Below are positions 6,679-61,355 of a DNA stretch of 64,000 nt, piece by piece. The stretch is from Oscillibacter sp. (lineage in GTDB: Bacteria; Bacillota; Clostridia; Oscillospirales; Oscillospiraceae): positions 58,195 through 122,194 of the forward strand of contig JALCRR010000003.1 of assembly GCA_022652815.1 (NCBI GenBank), in the 5' to 3' direction. The notes beneath the pieces were generated by a model that saw only the letters and a program-made list of their open reading frames with translations, was not told the origin of the DNA and made no database searches. Position numbers and translations under genes: made by a program. The stretch's first letter is position 1; each line of letters begins with the position of its first letter.

Positions 6679-6724
6679 CGCTTGACATTTTCACCGGGGC
6701 ATCCTATAATGAATTGCAATATTG

Positions 6725-6985
6725 AAATGCGAAGATGGGAAGCAGTAAGCGGAGTGGCAGACGCGAAGAGAGGGAACGGTTGGTGGAAGTTCCCGGTGTG
6801 CCGCCGATGAAGTCGTCCCGGAGCACTGCGCCGAACGAAACAGTAAGCTGCAGCGGAATTCCCCCGTTACCGGGAAGCGATATGGAAGTATCGGCAAAGT
6901 GCGCGCCCCATGGCGCGAATTCAGGTGGTACCACGGAGGACTCTCCGCCCTGAGCCAATTTCGGCTCGGGGCGTTTTTTTGTCTC
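6725..6985 (+). promoter_or_regulatory. T-box leader of valS
   Basis: T-box core aggtggtaccacgg at ~6925, followed by terminator ctgagccaatttcggctcggggcgttttttt upstream of an aminoacyl-tRNA synthetase gene. Confidence 0.9.
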
Positions 6986-15299: not shown

Positions 15300-15319
15300 A
15301 ACAGGTACTTTATGGTAAG

Positions 15320-15545
15320 ATGTCCGCAGTGTACGATGCACTGCGGACATACGAGGCGATCGATCAACCCTAAAATTCGGATTTTCGGGAAGGAAGATAG
15401 CTACGAAAGAAACCCAGGAAGGGTTCCTTTCGTTTTAAATCTAAGTTTTTAAAACGTTTTACGGGTTTTAAAAACTTGCGCAGCGGGGCGAAAATACTTT
15501 TTCGACACGCTAAGATGTCCGCAGTGTACGACGCGCTGCGGACAT
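15320..15545 (+). ncRNA. Structured intergenic element, copy 1 (full), bracketed by duplicated 31-nt palindromes
   Basis: Palindromes 15320-15350 and 15515-15545; core GGGAAGGAAGATAGCTACGAAAGAAACCCAGGAAGGGTTCCTTTCGT with two further hairpins; shared with 18161-18235, 41217-41376, 61173-61329. Confidence 0.7.
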
Positions 15546-18120: not shown

Positions 18121-18235
18121 AAGCGCCCTGCGGAGGATTTGCCGCAGGGCGCTTGCGCTTGTCGATCAAGCTGAAATGCCAAAATGACGGGAAGGAAGAG
18201 CGCTACGAAAGGAATCCAGGAAGGCGCTCCTTTTT
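18121..18235 (+). ncRNA. Structured intergenic element, copy 2 (3'-truncated)
   Basis: Palindrome 18121-18154, then GTCGATCAA...CGGGAAGGAAGAGCGCTACGAAAGGAATCCAGGAAGGCGCTCCTTTTT. Confidence 0.65.
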
Positions 18236-33942: not shown

Positions 33943-34054
33943 ACCTCGTGTCGCGGGGGATGGCTTGGAGAGAAGGCAGCGAAACTCTCCCAAGCCGGGG
34001 TTATCTTGTCCTTGCGCCAGTCCGGGGCGGATATGTCGATACCCTGTCCCGTAT

Positions 34055-34714
34055 GCCCCGCTGCCGCTGGCTGATTTCAAACAGGTAAGCGCCAGCTTTA
34101 TAGAAGTAGGGGCAATACAGGTTTCTTCCCCGGACTACTACGATTGAGCGGTTTCGCGTGTATTGGATGTACCGAAAATTTGTAGAGGGGTAAAGCCCCT
34201 AAAAGCGCCTTTTTCTTCCACCGTGCGGGGCGCATTCTTTTTCGGCAAGACGAAAAAGAATGGGGGGATTGCGGCAATGCCCCGCTGCCGCTGGCTGATT
34301 TCAAACAGGTAAGCGCCGGCGTCATAGAAGTAGGGGCAATGCGATTTTTTTCCCCGGACAACTACGATTGAGCGGTTTCGCGTGTATTGGATGTACCGAA
34401 AATTTGTAGAGGGGTAAAGCCCCTAAAAGCGCCTTTTTCTTCCACCGTGCGGGGCGCATTCTTTTTCGGCAAGACGAAAAAGAATGGGGGGATTGCGGCA
34501 ATGCGCCGCTGCCGCTGGCTGATTTCAAACAGGTAAGCGCCAGCGTCATAGAAGTAGGGGCAATGCGATTTTCTTCCCCGGACAACTACGATTGAGCGGT
34601 TTCGCGTGTATTGGATGTACCGAAAATTTGTAGAGGGGTAAAGCCCCTAAAAGCGCCTTTTTCTTCCACCGTGCGGGGCGCATTCTTTTTCGGCAAGACG
34701 AAAAAGAATGGGGG
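34055..34714 (+). repeat. Tandem repeat, ~3 copies of a 224-bp unit
   Basis: ctgccgctggctgatttcaaacaggtaagcgcc at 34061, 34285 and 34509; each unit carries hairpin cattctttttcg-gcaaga-cgaaaaagaatg. Confidence 0.95.
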
Positions 34715-41181: not shown

Positions 41182-41188
41182 AAAGACA

Positions 41189-41399
41189 GCCGCCGTTCCA
41201 TGAACGGCGGCCCTTCTTTGTCGATAAACACTGAAAACCCAAACAGCGGGAAGGAAGATAGCTACGAAAGGAACCCAGGAAGGGTTCTTTTCGTTTTCAA
41301 TCATAAGTTTTTAATACTTTTCACGGGTTTTAAAAACTTGCTCGGGCTGGCGAAAAGACTTTTTCGACAGCCTGCAGCCGCCGTTCCATGAACGGCGGC
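41189..41399 (+). ncRNA. Structured intergenic element, copy 3 (full), bracketed by identical palindromes
   Basis: cagccgccgttccatgaacggcggc at 41187 and 41375; core 41217-41376. Confidence 0.7.
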
Positions 41400-61137: not shown

Positions 61138-61355
61138 GGCGGCTGACAAATCTTTGTCAGCCGCCTGCTTTTGTCGCTCCACCCCCAAAAGCCCCGGCAA
61201 CGGGAAGGAAGATACTCGGAAAGAAACCCAGGAAGGGTGTCTTTCCAGTTCAATCATGAGCTTTTCAAAACGTTTGCGGGTTTTGAAAAGCTTGCCACAT
61301 GCTGACGAATTACGTTTTCGGCAGCATGTGCGGCTGACAAATCTTTGTCAGCCGC
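61138..61355 (+). ncRNA. Structured intergenic element, copy 4 (full, divergent), bracketed by identical palindromes
   Basis: gcggctgacaaatctttgtcagccgc at both ends; core 61173-61329 with compensatory stem changes. Confidence 0.7.

Follow-up and report, generated by a model that had tools for sequence, protein, structure and literature searches.

The 64,000-nucleotide stretch of Oscillibacter sp. DNA analyzed here (the window) contains four copies of a short repeat, at the four places where an earlier note on this sequence had described a repeat family with a conserved core. All four were recovered by a model of the core (R1) built from 10 copies in this genome, 3 of them within the window; the E values for copies 1 to 4 are 1.8e-30, 2.6e-9, 9.0e-32 and 1.6e-26, respectively. 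The full element is about 160 nt long (median 162), is bounded by the terminal inverted repeats CAGnCTGTCGAnAAA...TTTTTCGACAnnCTG and carries no transposase gene. Copies 1, 3 and 4 are full-length and contain the conserved strand CGGGAAGGAAGA together with the hairpins H1 (CGAAAGRAACCC-AGGAA-GGGTTCCTTTCG), H2 and H3; copy 2 (18155-18235) has lost everything 3' of H1 and is a remnant. No ORFs were seen in the copies, in agreement with the earlier note. The parts of the four copies are as follows.

15316..15350, + strand: copy 1, T1, first of the duplicated host terminator hairpins (direct repeat with 15511-15545, 94%)
15351..15510, + strand: copy 1 element, from the degenerate 5' to the 3' terminal repeat (R1 E 1.8e-30; bounds from the flanking repeat)
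15386..15397, + strand: copy 1, unpaired strand CGGGAAGGAAGA (invariant in 10 copies of this genome, strongly conserved in the A2 alignment)
15404..15432, + strand: copy 1, hairpin H1 (covarying pairs)
15443..15477, + strand: copy 1, hairpin H2 (from the fold; sequence varies among copies, pairing is retained)
15482..15511, + strand: copy 1, hairpin H3; the 3' terminal inverted repeat forms its 3' arm (covarying pairs)
15511..15545, + strand: copy 1, T2, second terminator hairpin (direct repeat of T1)
18121..18154, + strand: copy 2, terminator hairpin ahead of the remnant, without a second hairpin (from the sequence)
18155..18235, + strand: copy 2, 3'-truncated remnant (R1 E 2.6e-9)
41187..41211, + strand: copy 3, T1 terminator hairpin (direct repeat with 41375-41399)
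41212..41374, + strand: copy 3 element (R1 E 9.0e-32; flanking repeat)
41375..41399, + strand: copy 3, T2 terminator hairpin, then a T-rich run (direct repeat of T1)
61139..61164, + strand: copy 4, T1 terminator hairpin (exact direct repeat with 61330-61355)
61165..61329, + strand: copy 4 element (R1 E 1.6e-26; flanking repeat)
61330..61355, + strand: copy 4, T2 terminator hairpin, then a U-tract (exact direct repeat of T1)

The earlier note had not recognized the family and had allowed for a match in Rfam. A search of the whole window at the gathering level gave no match to the element, and a search with copy 1 at E < 5 gave no meaningful one; a known Rfam RNA family was therefore rejected. 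The sole Rfam match in the window is a T-box leader (RF00230, 109.7 bits) at 6723-6955. Elsewhere in the window, a tandem repeat of about 224 bp occupies 34050-34710 and has the hairpin CATTCTTTTTCGGCAAGACGAAAAAGAATG in every unit.

Duplicated terminator hairpins and the spread of the element

The outer hairpins of the interval around copy 1 (15316-15350 and 15511-15545), overlooked in the earlier note, are a near-exact direct repeat of a terminator peculiar to that locus. The hairpin that brackets the element is specific to each locus: ATGTCCGCAG...CTGCGGACAT for copy 1, GCCGCCGTTCCATGAACGGCGGC for copy 3 and GCGGCTGACAAATCTTTGTCAGCCGC for copy 4. Of 142 distinct loci whose flanks were long enough, 85 show such a direct duplication of the flanking hairpin; when unrelated flanks were paired as a control, 3 of 1125 pairings did. 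The repeated stretch, 31 nt long at the median, forms a hairpin when folded, and at most loci its boundary coincides with the terminal inverted repeats of the element or lies a few bases away. The A-tract is richer 5' of the first hairpin and the U-tract 3' of the second, which is the pattern expected if one A-hairpin-U terminator is split and only its hairpin is duplicated. No duplication was detectable at the remaining 57 loci, in some cases because the locus is truncated or decayed; a few loci without it (L030, L031, L045) are close to gene starts.

Among 73 hairpin pairs, 63 are direct, 7 have an inverted loop and 3 are ambiguous. The second hairpin's loop is inverted relative to the first at L203, L221, L184, L145, L147, L191 and L032; such loops could have arisen, for instance, if the spacer separating the arms was inverted once the element had inserted. 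A search of 1.1 Mb of DNA for longer elements with hairpin duplications returned only tandem arrays and apparent chance pairs.

The earlier note had named many homologues as a form of support, and of 301 genomes of this bacterial family 51 carry the element, with 25 R1 matches in the genome studied here. The matches listed include the genera Oscillibacter, Dysosmobacter, Flavonifractor and Pseudoflavonifractor, as well as Acutalibacter, Butyricicoccus and Galloscillospira. One genome (G268) has near-identical copies at about 10 different terminators, mostly with their own duplicated hairpin and next to unrelated genes, and some genomes contain arrays in which three terminators alternate with two elements. 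At most of the sites examined, the orthologous intergenic region of sister species has no element and usually a single terminator hairpin. This is so for copy 1 in G211, G082, G255 and G156, for copy 3 in G211 and G156, and for copy 4 in four sister genomes. At one orthologous site (L056 and L297/L302) both species carry the element; the two hairpins there are alike within each species and differ between them, as either independent insertion or concerted hairpin evolution could produce. A relative of the element also lies upstream of recJ in Vescimonas fastidiosa pMM35_01 (L308:1501-1606), where it is unannotated in the record.

The earlier note had placed every copy behind a stop codon on the same strand. 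This does not hold in general: over all loci the element occurs in both orientations, at 19:13 relative to co-directional genes as taken from simple ORF calls (p 0.38), and a strict sense orientation with host genes was rejected. In the absence of a clear bias, a sense RNA read by the host is not required.

IS1182-family elements with matching ends

One of the DUF772 transposases of this bacterial family (L227, at a locus with an assembly gap) belongs to an element that has the ends CAGACYGTMGACAAA and the same hairpin on either side. Its product is an IS1182-family transposase (NF033551, 470.6 bits; cutoff 270) with homologues in 40 of the 301 genomes; the domains of the partner transposases are PF05598, PF13751 and PF01609. 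Whole-hairpin duplication is seen on both sides of three IS elements (L227/L249, L250 and L256), of which L250 and L256 are complete elements of 1.5-1.6 kb, each bracketed by a directly repeated hairpin of about 30 nt. At six further loci (L254, L255, L261, L264, L277, L260) a hairpin adjoins the one readable end, while L230 and L240/L252 have a hairpin at either end, but two different ones. In the best matches between IS and short element over the outer 18-20 nt, 18/18 positions agree at the right end and 18/20 at the left; 2000 random 24-mers, used as a control, reach 12/18 and 13/20. A search with R1 inside the IS loci found nothing except a neighbouring copy of the short element in L097, and inheritance of the core from an IS was rejected for this reason.

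No close homologue of the matching transposase is present in the genome studied here. Its copies of the element may thus be fossils, or the enzyme that moved them may have been lost later. The two IS1182-type genes of this genome were rejected as a source: that on C25 (L099) encodes a protein of 526 aa and has unrelated ends (CCGAATTAATGTCCACTGAACAAA), and no matching ends were found for the partial gene on C19 (L101). IS and short element co-occur over the 301 genomes without a clear excess.

From its sequence, the repeat is very probably non-autonomous, MITE-like DNA of about 160 nt that is moved in trans by hairpin-duplicating IS1182-family transposases. It is short, has no transposase gene, has inverted repeats that match those of an autonomous IS and is flanked by a target-site duplication, as is usual for a MITE. 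The reading rests on these features together with the structure of the element, the sister sites with a single terminator, the recent multi-copy spread, and the presence of the same ends and the same duplication in IS1182 elements.

In the mechanism that we propose, the IS1182-family transposase would recognize the palindrome of an intrinsic terminator, probably extruded as a cruciform, and the 3' ends of the element would be joined to the two hairpins of the cruciform, each at its 5' foot. Gap repair would then duplicate the whole palindrome. The upstream side would retain the A-tract and one hairpin and the downstream side a second hairpin with the U-tract; the host gene would thus still end in a complete terminator. 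We infer four parts of this scheme: that the transposase acts in trans, that a cruciform is the intermediate, the chemistry at the strands, and that the host is not harmed. Joining at the 5' foot of both cruciform hairpins was predicted to duplicate the whole stem-loop (Wan et al., PMC5678879), and the elements described here fit the 5'-foot-joining alternative drawn in that work. The MITE and its likely IS1182 partners appear to be natural examples of a whole-stem-loop duplication that was previously theoretical. They offer an explanation for doubled terminators in gut Oscillospiraceae, and they suggest a safe-harbour strategy whereby a gene would keep a functional terminator despite the insertion.

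Instead of being a target-site duplication, the hairpin pair might be a later product of repeat conversion or of terminator copying, formed once the element had inserted. At some loci T1 and T2 do differ, through compensatory changes or through a loop that is inverted, and at the locus occupied in two species they are near-identical within each species and different between them. However, the hairpins are already repeated directly at recent, near-identical insertions, the outer A-tract and U-tract match a single split terminator, and the same duplication surrounds the IS elements while sister sites have one hairpin; we therefore consider formation after insertion very improbable.

The structured core

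Copies 1 and 3 fold better than all of 200 shuffles, with z of about -10. Covariation, the check proposed in the earlier note, was assessed in 39 element sequences from many records. In H1 and H3, 95% of the pairs are standard and 16 of 26 pairs are changed on both sides. None of 500 shuffles reaches any of five measures, although this test is inflated by relatedness; versions slid along the alignment drop to 41-53% paired, in a control that keeps relatedness, yet leans to the structure derived from one sequence. Although H2 varies in sequence, 93% of 136 copies retain at least 10 pairs in its arm, and a conserved A-G mismatch in H1 is found in 112 of these 136. The imperfect pairs of H1 to H3 comprise 77 G-T and 20 A-C, versus 7 and 7 in host terminators, the copies not being independent. 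The G-T excess hints at folding of one strand in particular, whether as RNA or as ssDNA. In many single-sequence folds, as in L221:7503-7664, the terminal repeat ACTGTC is also predicted to pair with a conserved GATAGT before H1.

The earlier note had read this core as a functional RNA and had named a match to a transposon end as an observation that would tell against it. That match exists, since the ends are shared with IS1182 insertion sequences. The element is structured, covarying and ORF-less, as the note maintained, but its transposon ends, target-site duplication, spread and orientation do not suit an ncRNA family of fixed sense. Covariation is by itself no proof of a host ncRNA. The structured core nevertheless still calls for an explanation.

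One explanation would be a host regulatory RNA, such as a 3'-UTR element or attenuator with tandem terminators, spread by ordinary duplication. The strong covariation of H1 and H3, the predominance of G-T over A-C among the imperfect pairs of H1 to H3 and the location at gene ends would all suit it. It does not account for transposon ends common to the element and the IS elements, for a locus-specific hairpin duplication, for the lack of a clear orientation bias of the element, for near-identical copies beside unrelated genes, or for the lack of the element at most orthologous sites examined, and we give it very little chance. A CsrA-sequestering sRNA, considered for the AGGA loops, was rejected: this genome has no PF02599 match, hence no CsrA. 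Group IIC introns insert after terminators, and a relic of such an RNA-based mobile element would combine terminator-linked insertion with an internal covarying core, but the element has terminal inverted repeats and a target-site duplication, the wrong kind of ends for an intron and a match to those of a DDE transposase family, and no Rfam model matches it, so that this origin is hardly credible.

In the MITE, the most likely role of the covarying core (H1, H2, H3 and the GGGAAGGAAGA strand) is that of a single strand, either RNA or ssDNA, which the element requires in its folded form; this is the least certain step of our reading. The core thus raises the question of whether a folded strand is needed for the MITE to move. 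Tentatively, and as a reading that is less likely than not, we suggest that the folded RNA or ssDNA could help to recruit the hairpin-recognizing transposase or steer it to extruded terminators. If the core does guide the transposase, the MITE would be a mobile element without genes that is guided by structure: fold would define its target, and the host terminator would stay intact.

Comparison with known systems

IS catalogues list variable direct repeats for IS1182, and hairpin duplication may therefore already be noted for single members. What is new here is a MITE family that combines whole-terminator duplication with an unexplained structured core. The structured intergenic RNAs of Rfam resemble it in their conserved covarying hairpins with conserved unpaired boxes, but the element matches none of them, is mobile and has no clear orientation bias. 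BOX, RUP and SPRITE are likewise short, ORF-less and dispersed, with inverted-repeat ends and internal secondary structure (PMC10969869); the element described here differs in duplicating a whole terminator and in having a core that is conserved and covaries across genera.

The closest characterised relative is IS1272, a member of the IS1182 family: its targets are stem-loops, terminators among them, and these are lost on insertion, with no target duplication (Wan et al., PMC5678879; Furi et al., PMC4923244). IS1272/TnSha1 thus shares with the present system an IS1182-family DDE transposase and stem-loop targets, many of them terminators, chosen by shape and not by sequence (PMC4923244, PMC5678879). 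However, IS1272 removes or replaces the hairpin, whereas the present element lies between two complete copies of it and has no gene of its own; target deletion of the IS1272 type is not seen, a hairpin being present on both sides of the elements. The IS1182 elements of Oscillospiraceae (L227/L249, L250, L256) have a transposase gene and lack the MITE core, but their terminal repeats and their whole-hairpin target duplication are the same as those of the MITE.
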